From an uncultured Flavobacteriales bacterium (GTDB lineage Bacteria > Bacteroidota > Bacteroidia > Flavobacteriales_D > Sanyastnellaceae): a stretch of DNA of 64,000 nt. The notes below the pieces were generated by a model. The model made no database searches, was not told the origin of the DNA, and was given only the letters and a program-made list of their open reading frames with translations. The position numbers and the translations under genes are program-made. Position 1 is the first letter of the stretch; every line of letters starts with the position of its first letter. This document shows positions 8,001-37,160 of this stretch, piece after piece. The stretch spans positions 1 to 64,000 of the forward strand of contig CALSMK010000021.1 in NCBI GenBank assembly GCA_943787435.1. The letters run 5' to 3'.

Positions 8001-11000
8001 CGCAAGCGCCACCGTGCAGGTGACCGTTCTCGACACCATTTCTCCAGTATTTGTGGATGAATTTGGATCACCCGCATTGGCGGAGGACAAAACCGTGGAA
8101 TGCGATGGCACTGACCACACCACAGATCTGAACAGTTGGATTGCCAACCATGGTGGGGCAGAAGCCGAAGACAATTGCTCGTCATTTGTTTGGAGCACCA
8201 GCGATACGACCTTTGTCCCCAGTTGCGGTAACTCTGGAAGCTATACCATGACGTTTACGGCAACGGATCCGAGTGGGAACTCAAGTTCAACAACCGCGTC
8301 GTACATCATCTCTGATACTGAACCACCTGTCATTGCATCAAGCGCTACCAATGTGACGGTGGAGTGTGATGGAAACGGCAATACGGAAGCCTTGGCCAGT
8401 TGGGTCGAAGCCAATGGTGGTGCTGGAGCCGTGTCCGATGCCTGCGGCGATGTCACATGGAGCAACAACTTTAGTGGATTCGGTGCCAGCTGCACGGGTA
8501 GCAGTGCGGTGGAGGTCACCTTCTATGCCACCGATGACTGCGGCAATGTCGCTTCCACATCGAGCATCTTCACCATTGAAGACACCACAGCGCCCTCACT
8601 TACAGCTGCAGCTGCAGATACCACGGTGGAGTGCGACGGTTCAGGAAACCTCAGCGATTTGCAGACATGGTTGGCCAATTATGGTGGTGCGACCGTTGAC
8701 GAGCTTTGTGGGCAAATCACTTGGACCATAGACACGCTGTCATTGGCCCCAGGTTGTGCATCTTCAGGAAGCCAAACCATCAACTTCACGGCAAGTGACG
8801 ATTGCGGAAACTCCGTTGCTTCGAGTGCCACCTTCAACATCATTGACAACACTCAGCCGAATGCGTTGGCCAATGATTTCACAGTCTACTTGGATGCCAA
8901 CGGTGTCGCTTCTATTGAAGTCGCTGACATTGATAACGGCTCAAATGATGATTGTGGTGACGTAACGATGGCATTGGATGTGAATTCATTCGATTGCGAT
9001 GATGTAGGTCCCAACCCTGTGACCCTGTCCGTTTGGGATGCGTGTATGAATGTTGATTCTGCAACGGTGACGGTCAATGTGACTGCCATTGACAGCCTGG
9101 CTCCAACGGTGGAGAACATGCCAGCCGATACAACGGTGACCGCAGATGACAGCAAGTGTTCTGCAATTGTGAATTTTGTCATGCCGACTGCCGCTGACAA
9201 TTGCGATGGAGGTTCATTGACCGCCTCACACAACCCAGGGGATGAGTTCCCGGTAGGAACCACAACGGTGACTTTCACAGTGGTGGACGCCAGTCAAAAC
9301 ACGGACTCAACCACCTTTGACATCACCGTAACGGATGACGAGTTGCCTGCATTCGCGCAGGTTCCAAGCAACATTTCAGTGAACAGCGATACCGGAGTGT
9401 GCACAGCCGCTCCACCTTGGACGGCTCCAGTCATTACTGACAATTGCGGCATTGACACCATCATCTCGACCCATGAAAGTGGAGATGTGTTCTCTTTGGG
9501 AACGACAACCGTAACCTACACGGCCACGGACATCCATGGCAACGTGGACAGCGTGAGCTTTACAGTGGAAGTCACCGATGCAGAGAAGCCAGCCATTGCA
9601 GGTCTTCCAGCAGACATTGCCCAAGGCAACGATGTTGGGGAGTGCACGGCAGCCGTTACATGGACATTGCCCACGGCGAGCGACAACTGCGAGTTGGATA
9701 CCCTGATTTCATCTCACCAAAGCGGGGACGTGTTCCCGCTTGGCGCAACCGTGGTGACCTACACTGCAACGGATGCCGCTGGAAATGATTCCATTGCCAC
9801 CTTCACAGTGACCATCAGTGACACAGAAAAGCCTGGCATCGAGAACTTGCCTTCCAACATCACCCAGACGAACGATGAGGACGTTTGTGGTGCGGTTATC
9901 ACATGGGAAGGCTACGATAGCACGACCGACTCCTACATCAATGTGGAAGAGAGTGACAACTGCCCTGGGGCCAACATTTCGTCCACACACAACAGTGGCG
10001 ATACGTTCCCAGTCGGTGTCACGACTGTGACCTACACGGCAATCGATGCCGCAGGGAATGATTCCATTGCCAGCTTTACGGTGACCATCACCGACGACCA
10101 GAAGCCAGCCATTGACGGACTTCCAGCTGACTTCTCCCAGACTGCGGATGCAGATTCATGCGGAGCGATGGTGTCTTGGACACCTCCGACCAGCTCGGAC
10201 AACTGCACGGGAGACACCTTGGCCACGAGCCACGAAGTGGGCTCATACTTCCCCGTGGGAACCACGACCAGTGACTTACACAGCTACGGATTCAGTGGGC
10301 AATGATTCTATCGCCTCATTTGTCATCACGGTGACCGACGATCAGGCGCCTGCCATCTTGGGATTGCCTGGTGATTTGAGTGCATCGAACGATCTTGATT
10401 CTTGTGGTGCCGTCATGACGTGGTCTGCGCCAAGCGCAGCCGACAATTGCACGGTGGATACCCTCTACTCCAGCCACGCCAGCGGAGACTACTTCCCTGT
10501 GGGAGTCACCACGGTGACTTACACGGCGGTTGACATTTACAGCAACTCGACGGATTCGACCTTCACAGTGACTGTGACAGACGATCAGGATCCTGCGATT
10601 ACAGCGGCCTCCGACACCACAGTGGAGTGCAATGGCTCTGGAAACACGGACGAGTTGAATGCATGGCTCGCCAACCATGGTGGAGCAACGGCTACCGACA
10701 AACTGTGATGCAGTCACCATTACCAATGACTACAACACAGCGGTCATGGCCGACTCTTGTGGAATGACGGGAACTGTTTTGGTGACCTTCACTGCCACAG
10801 ACGGTTCCGGCAACACGAGTACCACAAATGCAACGTTCATCATCCAAGACACGACCCCTCCAACGTTTGAACCCAATGGCGCATCTGAGGTCGTGGAATG
10901 CGATGGAAGCGGCAATGCCGATGAGCTCACAGCGTGGTTGGACATTTGGAACAATGGCATCACGGTCACAGACAATTGTGGCGGTGTTTCTGTCTCCAAG

Positions 11001-14000
11001 ACGAGCACCCTGCTCACAGATGAGTGCGGTGCAACCGGAGAAGCCAGTGTCACATTCGTGGCCACGGACGCCTGCGGCAATCAGACCGACACCACCTTGA
11101 CCTTCACCATTGAGGACACGACGCCTCCAACCTTGTTGACGACCGCTCAGGACTCCACGGTTGAATGTGACGGAGCAGGTAACCAGGATGCATTTGATGC
11201 TTGGCTCGCCAGTCATCGGTGGTGCCACGGCTGAAGATGTCTGCGGCAACTACACTTGGTCCAATAACTTCATCGCATTGAGCGACGATTGTGGAGCCAC
11301 GGGATCGGCTACGGTGACATTCTCCTGCCACCGACGAGTGTGGAAACACGAGCACAACCACTGCCACCTTTACCATTGAAGACACCACAGACCCAGCCAT
11401 CGCCTCCGAGGCCATTGACTTGACTGTGGAGTGTGATGGTGCAGGCAACCTGTCTGACTTGAATGGCTGGCTTTCAGCCAATGGCAATGCCGGCGCGGCT
11501 TCGGATGTGTGCGGCACATACACTTGGAGCAACGACTTTGTGGCCTTGAGCGACGATTGCGGTTTCACGGGCTCATCCACGGTGATCTTCACCGTCACAG
11601 ATGAGTGCAGCAACACCTCAACAACGTCTGCCATCTTCACCATCGAAGACACGACCGTGCCTGATGTTCCGGTCTTGACATGTCCAAAAGGATACCATCT
11701 TGTATGCCGACGCCAACTGCTTTGTGGACACCACCACTTCCAGCATTGGTTATGCGACGGCGACCGCTTTCGACGCGTGTGACTCACTTCCGACCATCAA
11801 CTTCTCTTACGTGGATGCCCCAGCGGTGTACACCTGCACTGCTGATGCAGACAATGCAGCGGAAGGCAGTTATGGGTTCACCAGAACCTGGACGTCCACA
11901 GTGACGGATGAGTGCGGATTGACGAGCGCAGCTGCAACGTGTGTTCAAACCATCACGGTTTTGGATACAGTGTCTCCAATTTTGGTGGCCGCTATGGACA
12001 CCACGGTGGAGTGCGATGGCGCTGGAAACCCAGCAGACCTCGCCGCTTGGTTGGCCAACAATGGAGGTTCCACAGGAACCGACAATTGCGATTCAGAGTT
12101 GGCATGGACCAACGACTATGACCCCGCCAACTTCGTGGATCTCTGCGGAGCCACGGGTTATGTGGTGGTGACCTTCACCGCCAAAGACGATTGCGGAAAC
12201 AGCTCATCTACCACAGCCACCTTCACCATTGAGGATACAACCCCACCGGCCTTCAGTGCCACGGCGGATGACCTTACAGTGGAGTGCGATGGTGCAGGCA
12301 ACTTGGCTGAATTGAACGGTTGGTTGAACAGCAATGCCAATGCTGCGGCATCTGACATCTGTGGAGGCGTGACCTGGTCTCATGACTTCATCGCGCTCTC
12401 CGACGATTGCGGAGCGACGGGAATGTCTACAGTGACCTTCACTGTGACGGACGATTGTGGCAACAGCGTCTACACGTCTGCCCAGTTCACCATCGAAGAC
12501 ACCACTGCACCCAGCATGGACGTCGAGTCGGCTGACTTGACAGTAGAATGCGATGGAGCCGGCAACCTCTCAGATTTGAACGGGTGGATCGCCAGCAACG
12601 GTGGCGCCAGCGCCAGCGACGATTGCAGCAGCGTAACCTGGAGCAACGACTTTGAAGGCCTCAGTGACGATTGCGGTGCGACGGGTGCGGCTACGGTGAC
12701 CTTCACGGCCACGGACGACTGCGGATTGAGCACCTCCACGACGGCGACCTTCACCATCGAGGACACGACCGATCCGAGCATCGACATCGCATCTGCTGAC
12801 CTCACGGTCGAGTGTGACGGTGCCGGCAACGAGACAGAGCTCAACAACTGGCTCTCCAGCCACGGAGGGGCCAGCGTCAAGCGACCTCTGCAGTGACCCT
12901 GTGATCACCCCGGTGGCCATCGGTGTCAGCAGCCTCATCGACGCCGGTCCGGACGGAACGTGGCCGCATGTAGGTGACGTTGACCACCACTGCTGACCCC
13001 ACAAGCGGAAACCCGCAGACCTTCCAGATCAACGTGACGTCCCTCCCGACTGGCGGTGCGATCTTCCGCGTGGTGAAGACGGTGGCCGACGGCAGCTGGT
13101 TCCAGGCCAACCCCCAGCCGCTGGTGCTCGGCATAAACACCATCACGGTGAGTGGCGTGGCCTTCCCGCGGAGCGTCAGGGTTCAGTTCTCCGATGGAGA
13201 CCCTCGAGTTTGATTCCCTGGTCATCAATGGCGAGGAGCAGATGTCCGCGCCCCCGACGGGTGTCACTTGGAGCAACGACTTCACGGCATTGAGTGACGA
13301 TTGCGGTGCCACGGGCAGTGCAACGGTCACCTTCACTGCAACGGATGCCTGTGGAAACACGAGCTTTACGACGTCGTCCTTCACCATCGAAGACACCACC
13401 GCTCCGAGCATGGATGTGGCTTCTTCCGACTTGACGGTCGAGTGTGATGGAAACGGCAACCCGACGGAGCTCAATGCTTGGTTGACCTCCAACGGCGGCG
13501 CTTCGGCTTCAGATATCTGCAGCGGCGTGACCTGGAGCAACAACTTCGCGGCCTTGAGCGACCTCTGCTCTGCCACAGGTGATGCAACGGTGACCTTCAC
13601 GGCTACGGATGATTGCGGCAACAGCACCTCCACTTCAGCCACCTTCACCATCGTCGATACGACGAACCCTGTGGTGAGTGGAGACGAGGTGGTCATCATC
13701 GACTGCTCTCAGTGGCCCTGGGAGACCTTGTATGAGCCCACCATCGATGAGCTCTTGGCCATCCAGGATACAGCGGGCAATCCCATCATCACCTTGGTTG
13801 AGGAGTGCGGATACTCCGACTTCCCGATTGACTACACATGGATGTCAGGTGGATGTCACTACGACCACCAGTTGGTTTACCGTCCGATTGACGATTGCGG
13901 TAACGTAGGAGACACCCTCTACCAGTTGATTCAGGTGGACGACTTCACCGATCCCGTCTTCACGTTCGTGCCGGCCGACACCATCGATCGCGTGCACGGA

Positions 14001-17000
14001 GAACGTCGCTGGCTTACCTCGAAATGGCCACGGCCGTTGATCGCCTGTGATCCGAGTGTCAACATGACGTTCACAGACAGCATTTCACGGAAATTCGCAG
14101 GGGGCTATGTCATCCTACAGAGAGTTCCGTGCTGAGGACTGCGGCTACAACATTGCACAGACGCCACGCAGACCATTACGGTGAGGCGATACGGTCGCTC
14201 CTGTCTTGACGGTGACCGGCACCGGCACGATGTTGCCTTGACCGGTTGCTTGCTCTACGGCTGACACCACGGAGGCTACGAACGGTTCTCCAGACCTGGA
14301 CTACCTCGGACAACTGCAAGGTACTGTGACTGTGACCTACACGGTCTCCGACGTCCTTGAAGCATTCACTGCTCGGCACGGCGAGACGACGCTCACCGCT
14401 GAGGGCAGCTTCATCGTCACGCGTACCTTCACGGTGACCGCTCATTGACGCCGCGGCCAATGCGACGACGACTTCAGCGTCGACCAGACGTTGACCCTCA
14501 CGGATGACAGCGCTCCGACGGTCAGCCTCACGGCTCCCGCCGACTCTCACGCTCTACCTGGATGCCACCTGCTTCGCAGCGGACAGTCGCCCACCCTGTA
14601 TCGGGTGACGCGAGCGGCTTCCTCGTGGATGCCACGGATCATCTGCGACACCGATGTGGCGCACACCATCACGCATGCAGACGACACGACCTACACGGGT
14701 GCGAGTCGACGGCGTGGGCAGCTTCGAGCATCTGTGCGGACCTACACCGTGACCGTCGCTGGACGACTGTGGCAACAGCAGCTTCGGCCACCACGAGCCA
14801 CAACGATCGCGGTGCTCGATACGCTCAACCCGAGCCATCACGCCGGACTTCCCGAACGACACCATCATCTATGCTGACGACAGCAACGGATACTTCGATC
14901 CGACGCCGAGCAGCACTGGAGTGCTCCTGCGGTGGACTACAGCGACAACTGCAGCGGTGCAGGTGACAAGTCACCTTCGGTTCCGTCGGTCAGATCTGTG
15001 CCCACGGGCGGTTTGATCATCACAGCCATCGGGGACCCGAACGACGCCGCTTCCAGCATGCCGCTTCGTGGAGATCCACAACAGCAGCGATGCGGACATC
15101 GACCTCAACGGTTACGCGTTGCAGCGCTGGACCAACGGCAACTCCGGACCGTCCACGGGCAGCAACATCGACCTCAGCTCCATCGGAACGTTGGCGCCGG
15201 GCACGTATGCTTGGATTGCCAACAACGCTGGATTCTCCGGATGCTACGGCTTCGCTCCCACACTCGTGGGCGGTACGGGCGGACCGGCGGACAGCAACGG
15301 TGACGACAACATCGCCATCATCGACGGCAGTTCCAACATCATTGACATGTTCGGTGTGGCTGGTGAAGACGGCTCCAACACCTGTCACGAGTTCGAGGAC
15401 GGCATCGCTCTGCGTGCCGGTTCCAACACGGACCCGAATGGCGGTGCTTGGGACGAGTCCGGTTGGATTGTGTACAGCGACGGCTCCAGTGCCAGCGGTT
15501 GTACCGATCACAATTCGAACCAATCCCAGAACGCTGCGGACATTGCACCGCTGGTGGGCAACTGGGCCGGTGCAGCTCCGCCTGCTCCGCCGACGGACTT
15601 CAACGCGGTCGACATCTCGTTCAACGACGTGACCACGAGCTACACGGCTTCAGCGTGCTACACGTTCGAGCGCACGTGGACGATCACGGTGACGGACAAC
15701 AATGGCAACGCCACGACGATGACGTCCTTGCAGACCATCCAGGTCGCCGATACCACGGCACCGGATATCGCTGCGGACGCCGACGCTACGGCAGCCTGCG
15801 ACTTCTTCGACTTTGACCTCTCCGCAGGAGATGAGTCTGCCACGATTGCCTACACCAGCTTCGAGCGAGCCTCAGCACCGGGCGGTCAGTATCACGGACA
15901 CCGGGAGACGCGAGGCGTGGACCACGCACTGGTCAACAACGCCGGGCCAGGCCGATGTCAACTTCACAGCCGCCAACGGGTGGTGAGCTCGGCTTCTCCA
16001 GCTATTTCTACTACGCTACGGGAAGTCTGGACGGTCTGTCCACCGATGCTGATTATGCCGGTGTGACCTCCGTTTCACGGGGAGCGGTAGGATGCGTTAC
16101 ACGGACGGAGCTCAGGGCTTCCAGATGACGGACGTGGACGGCCGGATGGAATTGACCTTCGATGAGGTTGATGTAAGCGATGGAGGTGTAGCACTGAGCA
16201 TCGGACGCCTTCGTCCAGAGCACAGGATGGGAGGCCGCTGATTTGGTCCGCATCTGGGTTGTTGCCGATGGCGGCGAAGTCGACCTGTTGAACACAACTG
16301 GTCAAGACATCGATAACTTGGGAATTGAGGATCAATGGATCACTTATACCCTCGATCTCGACGGATATGACTCTGCTGAGCTTCACGTCAGTCTGGCCAG
16401 CAACTCAGGTTCTGAAACGCTGTACATCGACAACATTTCCTTCAGCCAAGGCAACAGCCCAATGGCGGCGCTTTTGGCCAACGGTTATGTGTCCTTCAGC
16501 GACAATGTCGAGTTGGCCTACGACGGAGGCGGCGATCACTTCGATGCTGCTCCTTGTGAGGGTGCTTACGACATCGTCTACACTGCCACGGACAGCTGTG
16601 GCAACATGACTGAGTCAACCAGCGCATTGTATTGATCGACACCGTTGCTCCGGTTGCTCGTCCGAGCCTGCGGACACGGTCTCTTCGCCGATGCGGATTG
16701 CACGCCGACTACATCGATGGTGTGCCTTACCCAACAGCTTCGTCGTCGGACAACTGCGATGCGGATGCGGCCATCACGTCTTACCACGTCGACAGTCCGA
16801 AGCAGTACGCTTGCTTGCCCAGCACGGGTGCATTCACGCCTGCAGCGGACGTACACCTTCACGGCGACCGACAACTGTGGCAATACAACACGCACAAGTG
16901 AACCGTTTGGTGACCGTAGTGGATACGATCAGCCCGACCTTCAATGTGCTCTGTACCTAGCTGCGCTACGGTGAACATCGATCCGTTCTGCTCAGCGAAC

Positions 17001-19906
17001 ACCAGCACGACATTGGTGGTGATGCCCACGGTTACGGATGCTACGACAACTGTGACAGCAGTGTGGACATGGAGATCACCCACGTGGACAGTCGCTCCGG
17101 TCTACACATTGCAGCGATCCGATGGCAAGCACGAAGGTCACGTACACCTTCGTGCGGACGTTCACGGTGACCGGCACAGGATGATTGCGGCAACCAACGG
17201 TGACGACGGTGACGCAGAACATCACGGCCACTGGACATCACGGCGCCGACATCCTGGCTTGCCCCGATGGCAGACGAGGTGATCTACCTTGGATGCCGAT
17301 TGCTTGGCTGACCTGACTCCATCACGGCCATGCCAGTGGCATCGGCTTCGAGCCTGTGACACGATGTGGAGCTTCACGACCTACATATTCGATGGGCTCC
17401 GACTACACCTGCTCCAATGCAGATGGTGAGGCCGAAGGATCCTTCACCTTCACACGGACATGGACGGTGACGGCCACCGACGATGTGGACAACAGCAACA
17501 GTCAGCAGCCACTCAGCCTGTACTGTGGTGGCATCGATTGGCTCCGCCCTGGCTACAGCGAACATGGCCTGAAGACTATGCACGACTGATCTGGATGCAG
17601 ATTGCATGGCTGACCTCGTCGCCTGCGCGGCAGGTGGCTACGGCATCTTCCGAGGACGCTTGTGACAGCAATGTCAGTGTCCATCAGCTCATGCGACCAC
17701 GACACGACGCTGTTCGCTGTCAACGTCGGACGCCATGCTGCAAGGTGGATTCAGCTTCATCCGCACATGGACGAGTCACGGCAACGGACGACTGCGACAA
17801 CAGCCACAGCGACGCACGATCAGACCATTACCGCCAACGATGTGACTGCTCCAGTGTCAGACCCTCGAAACACTCCCGACCTACACGGTGGAAGGGTGCT
17901 ACGGCGACGTCGACCTTTCACCAGCCGCTGCGGGTACACCGAGGCTTCTGCTGAGGATGGTTGTGACAGCGAGTTGGACGTCGATGTGACTTACACGCAC
18001 GACAACCTGGCCTTCAACGAGGTGGTGGGTGACTACAGCCTTGTCATCGACACCATCAGCGGACCTGAAGAAGGCGTCATCGGCATCGACCACGGTGCGC
18101 ATGTACATCGAGACAGAGAATGAAGGTGACTTCATCAGTGCTGTTGCGGGAGACATTGTGAACCCAACGGGCATTCGCACCACCACGAGCTTCTATCAGA
18201 ACGCCCTTGGTAGCAATACGGCGAACAGCTTGAGCGACTTGCTCGTGGCTGCAGACCCCATGCTCGCTTATGACTCGTGGGTGACCATTGGAATTGAAGA
18301 AGCGCCAAACTCAGGTGATGGTGAAGTCGAGACTTCAACCATCGGCGATTGGGCCGCGGCATTCGCAGCGGGAGAGGACCTGTTGATCAGCGACTTCTTC
18401 GGAGGCAGCTGGTACACCATCTTCCCGAACAGCGCAGCGGTTGCAGGCGATGACCATCGTGTGTTGCTCGGCCAGTTCACCACGGACGGACAGATGAGCG
18501 GACAGCTGTTTGTTCAAGTCTTCCCGAACGGTGTGGGCGCGGATGAGCAACGGATGAGCTTCACCTTCGGCGATTGCGCAGAGGATGACGACACTCCTGA
18601 GGGCAGCTATTCATTCACACGCCGCTGGGAGAGTGTGGTGACCGACGACGCGAACAACCAAGACACGGCTGTGAGTTATCAGCACATCATGGTTCTCGAT
18701 ACGGAAGCACCGCAATTGACCAACACATGTGACATCGAGAACGGTGAGACCGTTGCCTACGATTGTCCAGGTGAAGGTGTTCTGGACTTCGATCCAGTGC
18801 CTGTTGCTTGCAATGTGACAGCCATTGACAATTGTGACTCCGAAGTCAATGTGAACTTGTTCACGGAGACCACAGGTTACATCCCAACCAATGACATTCG
18901 GAATTACTGCGCACCCATGACACCGGAAGCCCAGAGTGGCAACCAGACGTGTGATGATCGCGCACCGGAGTCCATGCGTTTGTTCAACTTCCCAGGTCTG
19001 GATGACAGCTTTGTCATGGCAGACGGAGAGAGCCTGGTACAGGTGAAGTCTGACGGTAGCTTGGAGATCTCTATGGAAATGGAGAACGGCGACGGAACAG
19101 GAGGATTCATCATGACGGCTTCATATGGAGTGGGTCAAGACTGGACCACTTGGCAAGCCAGTGGAAGCAACTACAAGAAGGACTGCGCTGAAATCTATCC
19201 AGGCGAGGCCGTTTGGGAGGATTGGGTGTACTTCTTGATGACCGAGGGTAGCTTGGAAGGAACAGGCATGTATGCTGGGTCCAGCTTCTCGTTGTCGCAC
19301 CAGCCAGCCAATGGCTACTACGGCCTGCAAATGGGTCTGGGTGCAAACAACAAGAACAGCAACTACGGTGGAAGTGCATGGTTCTTCTGGCAGGGCAACC
19401 TGTTCATGGATGGAACTGACATGGGCCCAATGGCCAGCTCGGGTGACTTCTACATGGACTTGGACTGCTGCTTGGAATGGCAAGTGGACTACTTCTACAC
19501 AGCCTTGGATGACTGTGGCAACCCAACCGGCTTCAGCTACAGCGAAGCCATGGGCACAGACCTCAACGGAGGTGGAGCTGATGTTTCCGGTGGACACACT
19601 GGAGGGCCAGTTGACATCACCAACGTGGGTGGAATCAAAGAGCCCATCCGAATCACTGGACTTGCTCCGAACCCTACAGACAACCAGAGTCAGTTGACCT
19701 TCTTGGTCAACCAGAACATGCGTCTGAGGGTGGACTTGTACACCATGGAAGGTCTCCTGGTTCAGGAGCTCTATGAAGGCAATGCCGTCACGGGTGTCCA
19801 GTACATGATGGACATCGATGCCGATCAACTCGCAGCAGGTATGTACCAAGTGCGGGTGAGCAGCAACGTCTACTTGGCGGTGAAAAAGCTGCTGGTTGCG
19901 GACTGA
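2074..19906 (+). CDS. Giant A: secreted HYR/Ig-like repeat protein with T9SS type A sorting domain (about 5,900 aa if frameshifts are repaired)
   Basis: Signal peptide at 2074; continuous repeat homology carried through successive ORFs in different frames (2074-10305, 10112-10708, 10659-11234, ... 18029-19906); C-term GLAPNPTDNQSQLTFLVNQNMRLRVDLYTMEG...AGMYQVRVSSNVYLAVKKLLVAD. Many apparent single-base indels between 10.26 and 18.1 kb. Confidence 0.85.
2795..4260 (+). repeat. HYR repeat block, about 6 units in A
   Basis: Recurring DPVI.G.PSDI....D..C.A.V.WT.PT..DNC......H.SGD.FPVGTT.VTYTA.D..GN....F.V...D. Confidence 0.85.
4410..4985 (+). other. Non-HYR domain inserted in the A repeat array
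   Basis: FNTHQQGGWGSTSGGVHDNLNNNFDAIFPSGVTVGCSAGYEIVFTTADAIETYLPC...LVSQILTAKLNAQFD... breaks a repeat after AGDC and rejoins at GSVTVTFTATDEAGN. Confidence 0.75.
5300..6540 (+). repeat. HYR repeat block, about 5 units in A
   Basis: Units ADVADITQDSD, AMAQVDAETS, GMPTDTTISND, SLPDTTLSSE, TMSDITVNTA. Confidence 0.8.
9090..10600 (+). repeat. HYR repeat block, about 6 units in A (one frameshift near 10269)
   Basis: Units NMPADTTVTAD, QVPSNISVNSD, GLPADIAQGND, NLPSNITQTND, GLPADFSQTAD, GLPGDLSASND. Confidence 0.8.
10600..13660 (+). repeat. Block of ~97-aa repeats with LTVECDGAGN / GATG...TVTFTATDDCGN motifs in A
   Basis: Repeated EDTTAPS...DLTVECDGAGNLSDLNGWL...GGASASD.CS.VTWSNDF..LSDDCGATG.ATVTFTATDDCGN. 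Confidence 0.8.
12895..13260 (+). other. Second inserted non-repeat domain within A repeat array
   Basis: ITPVAIGVSSLIDAGPDGTWPHV...LTTTADPTSGNPQTFQINVTSLPTGGAIFRVVKTVADGSWFQANPQPLVLGINTITVSGVAFPRSVRVQFSDGD.. splits a unit between SDLCS and GVTWSNDF. Confidence 0.65.
15000..15560 (+). other. Lamin-tail-like (LTD) domain within A
   Basis: GLIITAIGDPND...FVEIHNSSDADIDLNGYALQRWTNGNSGPSTGSNIDLSSIGTLAPGTYAWIAN...: LTD-like pattern. Confidence 0.6.
15845..16460 (+). other. Beta-sandwich/jelly-roll-like domain within A
   Basis: After frame repair: FERASAPGGQY...MELTFDEVDVSDGGVALSI...DLVRIWVVADGGEVDLLNTTGQDI...AELHVSLASNSGSETLYIDNISFSQGN. Confidence 0.5.
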
Positions 19907-20193: not shown

Positions 20194-23100
20194 ATGAACC
20201 CTCTTCGTTTGCCCCCCGGCTTGGCCATTTCCTTCATTGGGATGGCGTTTTGCTTCGCTTCCGTTCAATCTGTTTACGCCGATACTGGCGGATGGCAAGA
20301 TTGTGATTCTTCATGTTATGTGACGTCTTACAATCCAGTCAACGACACGGTGGCTTGTCTCGAGGACCTCGACGCATATGCATGTGCCGCTTTGACCATC
20401 ATCGATACTTGCACCATGGCTCAGACCATTGCTGCCCAGGTTCTCGGCAATGGGGCAGACAGCGTGACCACTTGTTCAGCCATCACGTCTCAAGGCATTG
20501 GTCCGGATGGAGCCTTGCGCATGTATGGCATCTCGAATTCAGGGTTGGTGGACAGCGACTACTTCATTGAAACCGAAGTCGGTCTTTCTTTCACGCAGTA
20601 CAAGAATGATGTGGCCATCTTGACGGGGGAGATTGCGGCCGAAGACAACCCTGACCAACGGTTTGAGGTCTTCATTGTATATGAAAACAGGGTGGATGGC
20701 TCAGATTGGGACGGTGGATTTAAACATGACATCGCATGCATTCCCCCCACAGACACCTGGGACATTTATACCATGAAGCCCGATCAAAGTCACCTGCTGG
20801 GCAAGGGAGACTTAGAGGGAAGTTTAATTCGTGTGACGCACGCACCCAGTTCACAATATTTCGGTTTCCAAGTTGGAGAAGGGGCCAACGACCACAATTG
20901 TGAATACGGAGCAGGAGGTTGGTTCAGTTGGGAAGGGTCCATTTGCGGAACAGAGTTGGCTGGAGCCATGGGTGATGTGATCGTAGACCTGGATTGCCAA
21001 ACAGAGTTTGATCCCTGCAATGCCAGATCAACGGCTCATTTCAGTGCATACATCGAGGACTGTGGTGTGCTTCAGTACTCCTACGACATTGTTCGCCATG
21101 ACGATACTGCACCCATCATTGCTGGTGTGCCGGCAGACACCATTCAGGATTGTGAATTGCCATTGTTGGAGCCCACGGGTGTGACGGTGTCGGATGATTG
21201 CCCAGAGCCAGGCTTCCCGACTTTGACTTTTGAAGGGACCTTTGAAATTGATCCACAGGATGGACACTGCAAGACCTATGAGCAGCGTTGGCGCGCAGAA
21301 GATGCCTGTGGCAATGTGAGCGAGTCTTCAAGGTTCATTCACACGTACGACAACGTGCCGCCATCGATGGTCGGGCAGGAGATTTTGGAGTTGGAATGCG
21401 ACCAGTGGCCCGGTGGAAACGAGCCACCCTTTGACGTGCTGGCGGAAGCCGGTATCATTGATGTGCAAGACAATTGCCTCATGGACACCGTCTTGATCGA
21501 ATACGGTGTCATGTCGGGTGGTTGCCACTATGACCATGTCTTGACTTACACCCCCGTCGATGCCTGTGGCAATGTTGGGGAGAGCTTGTACCAAATTGTG
21601 GTCATCCATGACACCAGCCCACCCGTTCTGGTGGACATGCCCGCAGACACCACGGTGTCGTGTGCCACGGATCCATCAGTGGTGAACGCGGTTCCCACCG
21701 CCACGGACAACTGCGATCCAGATGTAGACCTGTCCGTCACCTCTGCCATTTTGGACGATGGCGATGGATGTCCAGAGACCTTCATCATTGAACGCATCTT
21801 CACCGCTGTAGACTGTGGTTACAACCACACCATAGACACCCAATATGTCCATGTTGTGGACACTGTGGCACCTCTGCTTTCCTTGGATTTGCCGGAGAAT
21901 GTTGTGTTGGAAGGGTGTTTTGGAGAGGAGGACCTGAGCATTGAGCAGTTGGGTGATGCCGAGGCCTCTGCCACGGACGATTGTGGCGAGGTCACCTTGA
22001 CGTTAACGCACACCGATCAGCTTATCGAGGTGTGCAGCAATGGAGCGGGCGCCCCAAGGGGGTTCCGCATCGCTGGAACGCACTTGGACTTTGGTTGGCG
22101 TGGACTGCACCGGAAACTCAACCTCCACGTCCGGAACGCAAACCATCGAAGTGCAAGACAATACCGCACCGTCCTTATCTGGCGATCCTGTGGTCACATT
22201 GGCCTGTGCAGATTGGTTGGACGGGTTCAGTGGAGAGGAAGCCCTCGCGGCTGGGTTCATTGTGGCATCAGACAATTGTTTGCTGGACTCTGTTTCGGTG
22301 GCCATCGTGGGCCAGCTCAGCGGCAGTTGCGCCGGCACCTTTGAAGTGGTGTATACCGCTGTGGATGCTTGCGGATTGACAACGGATGCATCACAGATCA
22401 TCGAGCTCTTTGACAACGTTCCACCCGCCTTCACCTTGTTGCCCGAAGACGGCACCCTGTCCTGCGACGGAGATCCGTTGCCTTATGCCGAAGGAGAAGC
22501 CGAAGCTGAGGATGCATGCGGTTCGGTCACCATCACGGCCTCGGACGTCTTGGTCATAGATGGTTGTGGAGCCACTGCGGTTTGGGAGAGAACCCTCACG
22601 GCCACAGACGACTGTGACAACATCACAACCCACATCCAACGCTTCCAGCGTGAAGACAATGAAGGCCCCACCATCACATCCTTCCCCGATGATGTGGAAG
22701 CGTCTTGTGTGTTGCCTGCTTTTGACCCATCAGCGGTCACGGCCATGGACAATTGTGATGTGGCCCCAGTCATCCAACATTTTGATGACACCGTGAGCTA
22801 TTCCTGCAGTGGCACATTCGTGGTGGAGCGCCACATCGTGGCCACCGACTGCGCTGGAAATGCTTCAGAGGCCATCCAAACATTGAGCGTGGTGGACGAC
22901 ATCGCGCCCGACATGATTTCAGCCGGAGTCATGGTGACATTCTCATGCTCTGAGTGGGTGTGCGACATCGACTTGCTTCAAGAGCAAGGCTTCATTTCCG
23001 CCACGGACAATTGTGGTGAAGTGGATTTGAGCGTGACTTGTTTTGCCATGTCGGGCGGGTGCATCGAGCCATTTGGGACATACACCTTGCAGTACACGGC

Positions 23101-26100
23101 CACAGACCCCTGTGGCAATGCATCAACGGCCGAACAGATTTTGGTCCTGGTGGACGAGGAGGCCCCCGTGGGTGTTCTGGAATGTCCTGCTGATGTCACC
23201 TTGAATCTGGACTCGGAATGCAACTATGAATTGGGTGCGCCCAGTTCGGAAGATCCTTGGGGTCAGGCGTCAGGAAGTGCCACAGACAACTGTGACGCCA
23301 GTCCTGAGATGACCTTGTCTTTCAGTGACGGAGAGCCCCAATCCTCATGCGGAGTTGGCGGGAACATCACCATTGAAAGGACCCACACGTTGGAAGTGGA
23401 AGACCGCTGCGGGAACATCAGCACCGAGACCTGCATCCAAACCATTGTGTTCTTGGATACCCACGGTCCAGAGTTGGAGGTTTCACCGGTGTTTCCTCAG
23501 AACATCTTTGACTGTGTGGCCAATACCGATACTTCCATCGCGGCTTTGGGTTCTCCCACAGTCATGGCCACAGATGCATGTGGTGGCGAGGTCACCGTGG
23601 ACATCTCATATTCCGATTCCTTCACAACGTCCTGCGCTGGGGACGACAGCCAGCCCCAAGGAAGTGCAACTTTGGAGCGCACATTCACGGTCACGGCCAC
23701 CGACTGCGTGGGCAATGAGACCACCTCGGAAACCACTCAGATCATCAATTTCTTTGACATTGAGGCGCCTGAGCTGACCTTGACCTGCCCGGCTGATGCG
23801 ACGGTCTTGGCCGATTCGGATTGCAATGCCGATTTGGCCACCGACGTGCTGGGTCTACCCGGTGTATTGGCCACTGACAATTGCGACACAGAGGTGTCGT
23901 ACACCATCGAATTTACCGATGTGGAGACCCCAGGGGACTGTATCGGAAACCGCACCATTGCGCGGACATTCACGGTGGAGGCCATCGATGACTGTGGCCA
24001 GACCGAGTCTGCGACGTGCACACAAAACATCACCGTTTTGGATGAGGTGGCGCCAACGGTGTTCTTGACTTGTCCGGAGGATGCTCAAATTGAATTGGAC
24101 GACAACTGTGCTTGGCCCGGCGATTCTGGAGCACCAGATGTGATTGTGGCGGATGGTTGCGATCCCTCTCCCGTCATTGAGATTTCCCATGTAGACCACG
24201 ATACGCTTGCCTTGTGCACAGGAGATGACTCAAGCCCTGAGGGCAGTTTCTCTTTCATTCGGACGTGGACGGTTCAAGCAACGGATGACTGCGGCAACAG
24301 CCACATGATCAGCTGTGACCAATTGGTGACACTCTTGGATGTCTTGGCTCCGATCAACCATGGTTTGCAAACCTTGACGACCGACACGTTGGTGCTGGAC
24401 AACGATTGTTCCGTTGATCTCGCACCGGCCTTGTATCCAGCGTCTTCGGCGGAGGATGCTTGTGATGGTGAAGTGGCCCTCACGGTCGATTTCACAGACG
24501 ATCCTGCTGTCTACGAGGCCCAGTCCGATGGCGTGGCCCTGGAAATCGACACGTTGACCATGAGCGGGGTGGCTGGAATGACCACGTATCGGCTCTACGC
24601 TTCTTTGACGGACCTTTCAGACGTGCTATCGGCCGTGGTTGGAGAAGGAAACGATGCCACATGGATCACCTCTACTGCTCCTTTCTATCAGCATCCCGCA
24701 GGTGGAGCGACTCCACAGGGAATCAATCCTCTGTTGTTCGAGGCATTCCCAGAGTTGGAGTTTGACTCTTGGTTGACCATTGGAATCGAACAGGCTCCTG
24801 ACCCAGGAAATGGGGAGGGAGATGTCCAGCTGCTTCAGACATCCACCTGGGTGCAGGAGTTTGAAGCCGGAAATTCAGTGGCATTGAACAGCGGCTTCGG
24901 CGATGGTTGGTTCTCCACCTCCAACACCACCAATGGCGTTCCAGATGCTTCTGGTCGGGTTCTCATTGCTCAGCTGACCACAGCGGGTCATTTGAGCGGC
25001 CAACTCTACTTCCAAATCCTCGAAGGAGGAGTGGGTGGAACAGACGTGAGGTACACGCTGTCGTTTGGCAACGCCTGCACCGAGGAAGACGGGCTGCAAG
25101 AGGGCAGCTACACGTTTGTGCGGACTTGGCAGGGTGTGGCCACCGACGATTGCGGCAATGCCGATACCCTTTACACCTTCCAAAATGTAGCCGTTCTGGA
25201 TACGGCCGCTCCGCAGTGGACGGAGACCTGCGGCTTGGAAAACGGGGAAGAAATCACGCTGCCCTGTGCAGGAGAGGAGATCCTTGACTTTGATCCGATG
25301 CCGGACCCTTGTCTTGTGGATGCGGTTGACCAATGCGACACAGAGGTGGGCATTGCCCGGTTCGATGACATTGACCCAGATGCCCCAACGGGAGAGGTTT
25401 GCAACGTGTGTGCACCGTCTGATCCCGCACCAACCAATGGCGGATTGACCTGCGATGGAGAAGCTCCTCAATCGATGCGCTTGTTCAATTTCAATGGTGC
25501 TGCTGAGGCCTCATTCACGCTGACTTCAACAGAGTTGTCTAGGGTTCAAGTGGGCTGTGACAGCAGCTTGCTGGTGACGTTGAACCTGTCGGATGGAGCC
25601 GGAGGGGGCTTTGTTTATGAGGCCACTTACGAAGGTGGATGGGATTGGGAAAGCTGGAGCGGAGACGGTCATCCCGGTGAATCGGGGACGGGAGGTTCTT
25701 ACAAGCAAGACTGTCCTTCAATTTTTGACGGAAACCCAGTGTGGTTGGATTGGCATTACTTCATCCTGACAGGAGGATCTCTGGAAGGAACGGGAACCTA
25801 TGAAGGGAGTTCGTTCAACTTGTCTCACCAGCCATCGAGCATGTACTTCGGCTTCCAGGTGGGTGCAGGAGCCAACAACAAAAACGAAGAATATGGAGCC
25901 AGCGGCTGGTTCTTCTGGGACGGACAGTTGGTGTTGGATGGAGTGGCCCAAGGAAACTGGGCTTCCAGTGGTGACATCTTCTTGGACTTGAATTGCTGCT
26001 TGCCCTGGGAGGCTGAGCACGACTATGTGGCCCAAGACGATTGCGGCAATGCAGTCGCCTTTGAGTACACCGTCACCAATTCAGGAATCCCATCGGAGAC

Positions 26101-26437
26101 TGGAGCAGGTCTGCAGGGCAATGGCCACACCAGTGGCCCAGTGGTCTTGGCAGGAGGGGCTCCGGCAAAGTCGCCCATTCAAATTGTGGGCTTGATGCCA
26201 AACCCCACTTCCGACTTGGCCCAATTGCAGTTTGAGGTGTCCGAATCTCAGCGGTTGACTGTTCGTTTGCACACGATGTCGGGCGGACATCTGATGGATT
26301 TGTTTGATGCCGTGGCTGAGCCCAACATCATTTATCAGTTGCCCATCGATGTAGCGGGCATGGCCTCCGGCTTGTACCAACTCAGAATTGCAGGGTCGGA
26401 ATACAGCGAGGTGAGGAAGTTATTGGTCTCAGAATGA
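20194..26437 (+). CDS. Giant B: secreted Ig/HYR-like repeat protein with T9SS type A sorting domain; one apparent frameshift near 22,050
   Basis: Signal peptide-like N-term; ORF 20194-22344 and ORF 22040-26437 overlap, with repeat homology crossing at CSNGAGAPQGSASLERTWTL; C-term GLMPNPTSDLAQLQFEVSESQRLTVRLHTMSGG...ASGLYQLRIAGSEYSEVRKLLVSE. Confidence 0.85.
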
Positions 26438-36100: not shown

Positions 36101-37160
36101 TACCATCGACCAAGTCAGCTCATTCAGTGGTCTGCTTCCGACGGATGACATCGGCAACTATTGTGAAGGTCTCACCCCAGAGGCTTTCGCCAATGGAGAG
36201 ACATGCAACGGTGGCGCGCCAGCGGCGATGATTTTGGAGGGCGCCTATTTCGATGGAGCGGGCTTTACCGTCGTTGACGGCGGCATCAACCTGATCGAGA
36301 GCCATTACGACAACACCCTCTTTATTCAGGTGGAGATGGAAAATGCCGATGGAACAGGAGGATTTGTCTGGAGTGCGGATTACAACGCCGCGTTCAGCTG
36401 GGGACAATGGTCATCACTTGGCCGCGGATACAAGAAGGATTGTTCCGAAGTGATGCCAGGTGAAACACCTTGGACCGACTGGTCATTCTTGGTCATGCAG
36501 ACGGGCGGCATGCTGGGAACAGGCATTTACGCCGGTTCTGAGTTGAGCTTGACGCATCAGCCTATGAATTACTACTACGGACTGCAGGTTGGTCAAGGTG
36601 CCAACAACCAGAATGCACACTATGGGGCCAGCGCCTGGTTCTATTGGAGCGGACAGTTGGTTGTGGACGGAGTGTCTCAAGGGTCCATGGCCTCAAGCGG
36701 AGACATCATGCTCGACATGGACTGCACATTGCCATGGACTGCTGAGTACGATTACTCCATCTCTGATGCCTGTGGCAATACGACTGAATTTGGCTACGCC
36801 ATCCAAGGTGAGGACGAGTACAACCTCGATCCGCCTGTTGGGCTTTCAGGCGGGCACCAGCCGTTTGACGTCTCAGTCTCGGGTGGAATCAAGGAGCCCA
36901 TTCGCGTGACTGGATTGATGCCAAACCCAACAAGCAACGTGAGTCAGCTTGGGTTTGTGGTCTCCAACAACATGCGCCTCCGCGTGGATCTCTACAACAT
37001 GTCTGGCGAGCTCGTCCAAGAGTTGTACGATGGCAACGCCATGAGCGATGTGGAGTATTTGATGACCATCGATGCCCAAGGCCTCAACGCCGGCATGTAC
37101 CAGATCCGCATTGCGAGCAACGAGTACATGATCGTGAAGAAGCTGATGGTGTCAGAGTGA
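27144..37160 (+). CDS. Giant C: secreted 3,338-aa protein, FG-GAP-like propeller plus HYR/Ig-like repeats, T9SS type A sorting domain
   Basis: Uninterrupted ORF; signal peptide ending PSVHAQ; propeller repeats (FGESVDISGDYLIVGEHR..., LGRSVAISGDNAVAGSPFAD); HYR array; C-term GLMPNPTSNVSQLGFVVSNNMRLRVDLYNMSGELVQELYDG...MYQIRIASNEYMIVKKLMVSE. Confidence 0.9.
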   Translation: MLSLRCSLNAPSTAPVFSRFTTLASFLTLGLWMLLAPSVHAQCPNDNDAWLTWDFTTEGETASTSCIFSGEHNILEVLEAATYEVNTCASSWDTQLTIYDVATGAVVAYDDNGCGLQSTVTFTAAQDGTYLLVMDDASCSVPVGTECGYMEATLVNLGIPGACANAVVAVSGEVYDFNLAAGNGELNPSDGPNGTPGDEVVYEFTATVNGTHNVTVTNDDGLVDLFVGEVCSEDDFTYVEQVSQFHLHSLDLVAGSTYYFMVDDQNTTTNTGTFTITDPNYCGSGINESHALVANDTLTIQDNTSDLPDCCFFQPSNDATYELIVPESGSLWISACGSSFDTYMYLSTSTCGGITLAENDDFCGSQSLIEVDVTAGTYYVTLEGSQDTEMGAFELEILNTPFAPYSVHSKHASSQQGEGLKYGSSVAMSGDVLVVADEQEHVEVLRKAADGSWALEAIISAPSADISFGAREALATNGDWIAIGAKLDDTYASNAGAVHMYKFDGTNWGYEGSLSHMAPFGSLVTDQFGMAVAMDGDRMVVGSRAENGVGAAGAVHYFQYNTMLDMWVESGFIASEHTSGNSTSKFGESVDISGDYLIVGEHRNNTNGNFAGAVHIYSFYNQCWHIQNVFYGHEANDQLGRSVAISGDNAVAGSPFADMNGLNESGAATLYQLTPFSGGESFWSETFHFAPDGTAAGDWFGDAVDIDGGLLAIGVPRDDEYVINGGAGYFLFDCTGGSLNCVNEGFACDAMQNDRLGFDVAVSGELAAIGATLDDNIYDDAGSVYILGSNDIGFECDLTAPGDTETDLISADDSGASASDDTTRNTTPDFDVFLPGGSGLSVTEGYLAQAGDALIFYLEGSGDSTTVILSEDDIDSGVYNFEFVYPGPVLEDGVYTFCSYLIDVFGNVGSTDCVTIVVDNEDPEPVLDFGASAIAGSDTTLYLDNSGNVVLNIEGSDNISATDNIAMDTLYADITDFDCDDAGTIVEVTLTAVDLAGNISTTTFDLAIEDDIAPVVSVQNVTVQLQMTGTGSLTAAQADNGTTDNCGIDNLAISQTTFDCDDVGDQTVVFTATDLSGNTTTANFTVTVEFNQAPNANAQDVTLELDANGNANTTAAAVDNGSGSACAIGSLSLSQTDFTCADLGDNPVTLTVIDSYGNVSTATATVTVVDLLAPTPVTQNVTLQLDSAGMVSLTAAEVDNGTIENCSLDNLAISQTDFDCTDVGTSTLEFSARDISGNTATTNFTVTVEDNVAPEAIAQDLTIQLDATGNAATTAAAVDNGSNDACGIASRSLSQTNFGCADLGPNNVTLTVTDNNGNESTTTAVVTVEDIAPTIAIAQDLTVELDAAGIAFITAPQADNGSNDPCGIASTTVSQSGFDCDDLGANEVDFSATDINGNTATVTFTVTVQDNIDPTLSGTPSNITLSVAAGTCGAAATWTDPAVADNCSATLSSSHTSGATFDVGVTTVTFTATDIAGNTATSSFTVTVTDNEAPVISDTPAAMTQSSDAGNCSAVVNWTAPTAADNCGVDSMTGDAASGDTFPVGTTTVTYTATDIHGNTATSSFTVTVTDDEAPVISDKPTNITQTADAGQCAAGVTWTAPTASDNCGIATLTADADPGDTFPVGTTTVTYTAADIHGNITTASFDITVTDDESPAITGMPSNITQSNDAGICGAAVNWTAPAGTDNCTVASLTSTHDIGDTFPVGTTNVTYTVTDAAGNTNTSSFTVTVTDDEAPVISNVPADFTVLTASGESTAIVTWPELPAAAPEASDNCGVTSFTSTHASGDTFNEGTTTVTYTAMDAAGNTTTASFTVTVSDGEAPIISGNPTDITQTADAGVCSAVVNYTAPTATDNVEVVSFSGDAASGDTFPVGTTTVTYTAIDDAGNTTTSDFTVTITDDEAPAIADTPANITQTADAGQCSAVINYTAPTASDNCAVTSFSGDAASGDAFPVGTTTVTYTAVDPAGNTTTTSFTVTITDDEAPAIAGTPSNFNQTADAGICGAAISWTDLTASDNCAVASLSGTHDSGDTFPVGTTTVTFTASDIHGNTTTSTFTVTITDDEDPSISGTPEDITQTADAGVCGAAVSYTPPTAADNCGVDSFTSTHDSGDTFAVGTTTVTYTATDAAGNTTTSSFTVTVSDDESPVIAGMPGNITQSNDAGACSAVVSYTAPTASDNCGIASFSGDAASGDTFPVGTTTVTYTASDIHGNSTTASFTITVTDSEAPVISGTPTNITQTADAGQCSSAVTYTAPTAADNCGMSAFFGDATSGDIFPVGTTTVTYTASDIHGNISTASFTITVTDDENPVISPTAEDVTYQRDGNEGTAYDAWIAGYGGAAATDNCGIDAWSDNSTGLSDGCGSTGTETVTFTVTDIHSNSSGTTATFTVIDDFAPSCPVIDLTDGSDNGLSGTDDVTNDDTPTMRVLFTGSGVESAEEGDIVELYIGGVLFETQTVTDLDVANGYAEFETGPFADGAVSFSARHIDDCAQASIFAFLNIVIHTTAPSAMADGLTLYLDTDGNASIEAEDLDDGSSDDFTAVAFSASQTAFTCADLGDNTVTLTVTDIAGNTATAAATVTVVDNIDPIIVASNITKQLDAAGNATLTLSEVASITDNCAVASSSIDIESLDCSDVGEVTITITAADQSGNTSSATAIVTVEDNVAPTLVLADAVLYLDEEGSASIMASDLDNGSSDACGIAGFNFGAAGADGPGMTYGCDDAGINTMTVQVEDVNGNVTSGSVNVTVLDTLAPVLNIFDLEDYTLYAGETCVNMVDLFAAGTPWYEATDNCFFSVEILYDEINETGIAGCREFDRRWVIQATDASGNMSSDTTLQHITVIDNIAPTVFLDGVPADLSIELDANCNGDMPAAAAVTASATDNCTNAPALGVVSYVDSAPAFLCGDAGSYTVLRTYMASATDDCGNSGMTSQTQTVTFMDVTPPQVTFSHGISNNETLMQSQGNEVFDWINLTIPVDLGAQDGCGGDVTIDQVSSFSGLLPTDDIGNYCEGLTPEAFANGETCNGGAPAAMILEGAYFDGAGFTVVDGGINLIESHYDNTLFIQVEMENADGTGGFVWSADYNAAFSWGQWSSLGRGYKKDCSEVMPGETPWTDWSFLVMQTGGMLGTGIYAGSELSLTHQPMNYYYGLQVGQGANNQNAHYGASAWFYWSGQLVVDGVSQGSMASSGDIMLDMDCTLPWTAEYDYSISDACGNTTEFGYAIQGEDEYNLDPPVGLSGGHQPFDVSVSGGIKEPIRVTGLMPNPTSNVSQLGFVVSNNMRLRVDLYNMSGELVQELYDGNAMSDVEYLMTIDAQGLNAGMYQIRIASNEYMIVKKLMVSE
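30180..31380 (+). repeat. Five ~75-aa Ig-like repeats in C
   Basis: AQDVTLELDANGNA..TAAAVDNGS.DACGI.S.SLSQT.F.C.DLG.N.VTLTVTD..GN pattern. Confidence 0.75.
31378..34080 (+). repeat. Array of 11 HYR repeats (~84 aa each) in C
   Basis: Eleven consecutive units (SGTPSNITLS ... SGTPTNITQT); several share long identical DNA blocks. Confidence 0.9.

Follow-up and report, generated by a model that had tools for sequence, protein, structure and literature searches.

An Uncatalogued Domain Family Nested in Split HYR Units of Giant Flavobacteriales Proteins with T9SS Tails

Introduction

What kind of domain recurs just ahead of the sorting tails of three giant genes in an uncultured marine Flavobacteriales bacterium, and what it may do there, is the question raised by the locus considered here, a stretch of 64,000 nucleotides that was analyzed as a whole (the window). 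A preliminary description of the three genes, A, B, and C, had taken the recurrent segment for an unnamed module of about 200 amino acids (18965–19550 in A), with close copies in B and C, and had noted that it lies where one would expect a ligand-binding or surface-anchoring head beside the sorting signal. Searches of genomes and curated domain collections, structure prediction, and comparison of the module with its surroundings bear on each of these points.

The Host Genes

The peptide quoted for A is real and is encoded in an open frame at 17990–19903; this reading frame terminates at 19906, and only the last 638 codons of A are open. Many frame changes interrupt A at about 10.3–18.1 kb (10300–18110). 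In a close relative the homologous frame stays open over 1,834 aa or more, and the changes in A are probably indel errors of assembly or sequencing rather than decay. B (20194–26437) is one gene cut by a single frameshift near 22043–22062, as both of its ORFs in the window match one 2,086-aa frame in a close relative, at residues 1–628 and 622–2086, respectively. By eye, a stretch of A at about 15090–15420 (VEIHNSSDADIDLNGYALQRW...) resembles a lamin-tail-like domain.

Extent and Conservation of the Module

Copies of the module in the window, together with its most conserved motif, are located as follows:

18968–19471 (+): module in A, C-terminal type (genome search, profile, AF2, hhalign)
25472–25996 (+): module in B, C-terminal type (genome search and profile searches)
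36225–36725 (+): module in C, C-terminal type (genome search and profile searches)
20512–20997 (+): fourth copy, internal type, in the N-terminal part of B (profiles, E 8.7e-57 and 1.2e-53; internal clade in the tree)
19316–19384 (+): most conserved module motif in A, (Y/F)-x2-Q-x-G-x-G-A-N-x2-N-x3-G-x3-W-F (100-copy alignment)

Used as a query against its own genome, the B copy finds 11 places, including the proposed close copies in A (1.9e-58) and C (7e-50), the internal copy of B (3.3e-17), B itself, and seven elsewhere; a wider profile finds 12 module copies in the same genome. The module of A is 53–55% identical to that of B and 51% identical to that of C, a likeness far above chance. The module proper is assigned to 18968–19471, a length of about 166 aa, because distant homologues that lack HYR units align in profile-profile comparison only over residues 98–265 of the segment and because AF2 folds 18971–19468 autonomously. 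The original figure of about 200 aa was therefore too large, with 19472–19550 representing the second half of a HYR-like unit. Comparison of the module with planctomycete and alphaproteobacterial copies by hhalign gives a probability of 99.7 and an E-value of 1.7e-26. One Gln and two Gly residues (Q, G, and G of the motif) are identical in 100 of 100 aligned copies from three phyla, and A, N, N, and W and a G-D pair are conserved at 92–97% over the 100 copies.

In Pfam and NCBIfam scans of the three long host segments and 11 diverse copies, matches other than sub-threshold noise were confined to the HYR-like flanks and the T9SS tails; divergent homologues from other phyla matched these collections only in their sorting tails, and module profiles found no match among PDB sequences. 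The module family is uncatalogued as judged against Pfam-A, NCBIfam 20.0, the PDB, and the literature searched. The view that it belongs to no named family thus stands, as the searches of Pfam, NCBIfam, and the PDB gave no whole-module match to any curated family, characterized Pfam families among them. The candidate DUF7781 (PF25003) was rejected as sub-threshold (best match 7.2e-4, 19.4 bits against a 25-bit gathering cut-off); its matches involve about 20 closely related copies, cover only the conserved core, and are partial (77–143 of 173), and none falls on the module in 12 divergent genomes. Likewise rejected was an Egh16-like match (0.02), partial and present in one member only. The literature searched yielded no work on HYR giants with T9SS and no paper naming DUF7781.

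A check by AlphaFold and Foldseek, suggested in the preliminary description, gave a confident AF2 fold and no significant PDB match. The module is predicted to fold independently, since the AF2 model of the isolated module (61 sequences), which is all β save for two short helices, reaches a pLDDT of 95.0 and a pTM of 0.88; the model of HYR plus module (18677–19570, 58 sequences) reaches 92.2 and 0.85, respectively. With neither model did Foldseek find a PDB match at E ≤ 0.001, and for the module model no significant lectin or CBM fold match was found (best E 0.21). Avidin-like up-and-down β barrels (tamavidin, xenavidin, streptavidin) recur among the weak matches (E 0.44 at best; TM to target 0.42–0.46, prob 0.2–0.6) and have no sequence or motif relation to the module; they are not taken as a sign that the module binds biotin, and this fold was not adopted for it. 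Viral homologues were looked for as well, with none found by sequence and no significant match by fold.

Insertion into a Split HYR Unit

The placement of the module as a terminal head gives way to a different architecture when the repeats around it are considered. Simple HYR-like units in B measure 81–101 aa. Its last two units greatly exceed this: one has 287 aa, and the other is the C-terminal unit that bears the module. Around the module of A, the host unit is divided as follows:

18698–18859 (+): first half of the host HYR-type Ig-like unit (HYR profile positions 1–48; AF2 strands)
18860–18967 (+): linker with a conserved Cys, lying between HYR half and module
19472–19549 (+): second half of the split HYR unit (HYR profile positions about 57–81; excision test)

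When eight simple units were made into a first HYR profile, almost all C-terminal copies proved to be flanked by its complementary halves, positions about 1–50 before the module and about 57–89 after it. When the module is excised in silico and the junction is scored with a broader profile of 120 nonredundant units, 62 of 112 copies regain one complete HYR unit that spans the junction (52 of the 73 C-terminal copies and 10 of the 39 internal ones). No unit was restored when the downstream flank was shuffled (0 of 112) or when the sequence was allowed to run into the module (0 of 112). Internal copies, with divergent HYR flanks, are overrepresented among the 50 of 112 that fall below the strict excision criterion. 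From the excision results and the complementary halves it follows that the module is an insertion that splits a HYR-type Ig-like unit. HYR and HYR_4C repeats (PF02494, PF23237) build the rod of the giants and the split host unit itself, whereas the inserted module has a fold of its own and is no HYR variant, and profiles of these repeats match only its flanks.

The other overlong unit of B, just ahead of the module-bearing one, holds a different element:

24518–25072 (+): element of about 185 aa (GMTTYRLYASL...) in the HYR unit preceding the B module (unit 766–1053 of ORF 22040, 287 aa)

This element, which has no Pfam match, is a second candidate for split-unit display. A relative of it was noticed in A around 18050–18550, again in the HYR unit preceding the module.

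Sorting Signals and Position in the Host

As originally described, the C-terminal module of each giant is followed by a T9SS tail, and all three tails are recognized by PF18962 and TIGR04183, those of A and C at the curated cut-off of at least one of the two models and that of B just under:

19667–19897 (+): T9SS type A sorting tail of A (TIGR04183 24.7 bits, cut-off 23; PF18962 26.9 bits, cut-off 27)
26198–26428 (+): T9SS type A sorting tail of B (PF18962 23.9 bits, TIGR04183 20.8 bits, just under the cut-offs)
36921–37151 (+): T9SS type A sorting tail of C (PF18962 36.9 bits, TIGR04183 31.6 bits)

Export of the giants by T9SS is supported by these tails. A search for T9SS machinery in the incomplete genome found a partial sortase-like match in a 1143-aa frame (1.9e-12, 44.8 bits against a 420-bit cut-off). 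Type A tails of T9SS cargo are cleaved off, and the mature protein is either attached to the outer surface by its C-terminus or released. The C-terminal copy would thus lie near the cell surface rather than at the tip, given a C-terminal T9SS anchor, and the internal copy further out.

A strict association of the module with T9SS tails holds for one class of copies and fails for others. Among C-terminal-type proteins, TIGR04183 matches each of the 76 tails scanned (E ≤ 0.01), and C-terminal copies sit 103–141 aa from the C-terminus, nearly all at 120–141; it is with internal copies, VPLPA-CTERM and PEP-CTERM proteins, and untailed tandem copies that the linkage breaks down. The distance to the C-terminus reaches about 2,200 aa in other homologous copies, and some copies occur without HYR units. 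In eight proteins from Alphaproteobacteria and planctomycetes, a leader, a single module, and an exosortase-type tail make up essentially the whole chain; seven of these proteins score above the VPLPA-CTERM cut-off and one, from a planctomycete, above the PEP-CTERM cut-off; the Rhodobacterales homologues are small single-module proteins that end in VPLPA-CTERM. In four planctomycete relatives, two or three modules occur in tandem in one protein with no recognized sorting tail. In the planctomycete protein pair of L117, DCNxNGxPDECD repeats that look EF-hand- or dockerin-like by eye stand directly before the module.

Because the homologous core is paired with T9SS type A, VPLPA-CTERM, and PEP-CTERM tails, the module is a choice-of-anchor-like domain family. 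It resembles the choice-of-anchor domains of NCBIfam in combining one extracellular domain with different C-terminal sorting signals; it differs in that no named NCBIfam choice-of-anchor model matches it. Among choice-of-anchor domains, the CAA lectins of Acanthamoeba are known to bind cellulose (PMC6541295).

Distribution and Ancestry

Within the genus, 16 of 16 relatives hold 5–20 module copies each, and across the order the module is present in 87 of 249 sampled genomes, in many of them as multiple copies. For the phylum, an earlier and narrower profile, with at most eight candidates scored per genome, found it in 3 of 396 sampled genomes. A contig-wide profile scan, for which a narrower alignment was used, gave 74 loci, nearly all from marine Flavobacteriales, together with Saprospiraceae, Marinicaulis, Roseobacter, and a planctomycete. 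A profile built from Bacteroidota copies alone (Z = 1e6) recovers the copies of Marinicaulis (1.2e-19), the planctomycete L117 (1.5e-15 and 1.5e-10), and Roseobacter (8.5e-11). The module was found in 9 of 199 Planctomycetota genomes and in 9 of 198 genomes of the Roseobacter's order, and a broad draw from the class of Marinicaulis returned 1 of 190 genomes, Marinicaulis itself, which suggests that the search is specific. The family is common to Bacteroidota, Alphaproteobacteria, and Planctomycetota. Plasmid-borne copies were considered and set aside, as the sole plasmid match, to a PKD-domain protein of an Aureispira plasmid, is weak (E 6e-4).

The giants of Bacteroidota often pair an internal copy with another just ahead of the tail. 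In a tree of 100 copies, midpoint-rooted and with several long distant branches, the C-terminal copies form a single clade (100/97) and the internal copies separate into two groups, of which one is placed closer to the other phyla. Given this separation of the C-terminal clade from the internal copies, the pair is ancient, and recent duplication within each protein was rejected. One contig labeled as a Chryseobacterium gleum MAG has a C-terminal-type copy that groups with Cryomorphaceae, and its label may reflect misbinning.

Proposed Function and Alternatives

With the family, its nesting, its predicted fold autonomy, its two paralogous positions, and its several anchors established, the module can be proposed, at about even confidence, to be a noncatalytic ligand binder projected from a split HYR unit, with a polysaccharide on the cell surface or close to it as the most likely ligand. 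The module occupies one loop of a HYR unit, splits that repeat in two, and would be held out sideways from the rod, where it would bind its ligand without catalysis, with T9SS, or the exosortase system in relatives, exporting and anchoring it. Each giant typically has two ancient versions, of which one lies far out on the rod and the other in the final HYR unit ahead of the sorting tail; such a pair might allow a single protein to hold two ligands or to bridge two surfaces.

The proposal draws on work with RTX adhesins, in which emergence from a split Ig-like domain marks a ligand-binding domain (PMC12077191; PMC10865825). As the module emerges from a split HYR unit, it may by analogy be counted as a ligand-binding domain off the HYR rod. 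In FrhA (PBD/SBD), MpIBP, and AhLap (CBM), as in the module hosts, a folded domain arises where an Ig-like unit is split, within a very long surface protein built of repeats; those adhesins differ in using T1SS and an RTX extender where the module hosts use T9SS and HYR. The likeness is architectural only, with no sequence relation to the module found, and the FrhA and MpAFP peptide-binding domain with split domain is among the top Foldseek matches of the HYR-plus-module model at a nonsignificant level (E 0.011, TM 0.11). Retention of 5–20 copies per genome across the genus is counted in favor of ligand binding. Counted against it are the transfer of the split-domain criterion by analogy from T1SS/RTX adhesins, the failure to find a significant lectin or CBM fold match, the 50 of 112 copies below the strict excision criterion, and the conserved Q, N, N, W, D, and many G residues, which could be structural. 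Also on this side is the expected position of the C-terminal copy near the cell, where host contact is unlikely. The same position favors a surface or matrix polysaccharide as the ligand of that copy. A polysaccharide ligand would also be in keeping with the exosortase-type tails of relatives, since PEP-CTERM sorting was first described as exopolysaccharide-associated (PMC1569441).

That same association, together with the near-C-terminal position of the module beside T9SS type A, VPLPA-CTERM, and PEP-CTERM tails, lends something to a special case of ligand binding in which exopolysaccharide or LPS of the cell itself is the ligand and the module keeps surface proteins in the matrix under any sorting system. 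Internal copies far from the tail fit this poorly, and it is best treated as a tentative possibility. Stated for the family as a whole, the idea would be that a β-domain family of three phyla, without a close relative of known structure, binds extracellular polysaccharide of the producing cell as a common matrix-attachment part for any sorting system and, in Flavobacteriales, came to be inserted into the HYR repeats of giant adhesins, in two fixed places; in this form it is rather doubtful.

Other readings dispense with such a ligand. The single clade of C-terminal copies, their narrow range of distances from the C-terminus, and their uniform T9SS type A tails would also suit an export adaptor that caps the HYR rod, presents the tail to the translocon or sortase, and binds no outside ligand. 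This is unlikely, as the module fold is not tied to T9SS: homologues occur as far as about 2,200 aa from the C-terminus, beside VPLPA-CTERM or PEP-CTERM tails, and without HYR units. Homotypic assembly, in which copies bind each other so that giants form a lateral sheath or bridge neighboring cells, could account for two ancient copies about 5 kb apart in each giant and for the tandem modules of planctomycetes, but the small single-module proteins of Rhodobacterales count against it, and it appears quite unlikely. A surface-displayed enzyme domain, for example a glycan-active one, is very improbable: an invariant Q and near-invariant N, N, W, and D across three phyla speak for it, but the module has no recognizable catalytic set, and neither the Pfam, NCBIfam, and PDB searches nor any significant Foldseek match links it to an enzyme.

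Significance

The analysis goes beyond the preliminary description in finding the module nested in a HYR unit, common to other phyla and sorting systems, and accompanied by an ancient internal paralogue. A domain family missing from Pfam, NCBIfam, and the PDB is present in over a third of the sampled genomes of its order and in two other phyla. Its architecture suggests that display of a ligand unit from a split domain, known from T1SS RTX adhesins, is also used by T9SS HYR giants. A practical rule also follows for the large surface proteins of marine Bacteroidota that lack annotation: to find their binding domains, seek overlong HYR units. Applied to the window, this rule already picks out the second insert of about 185 aa.
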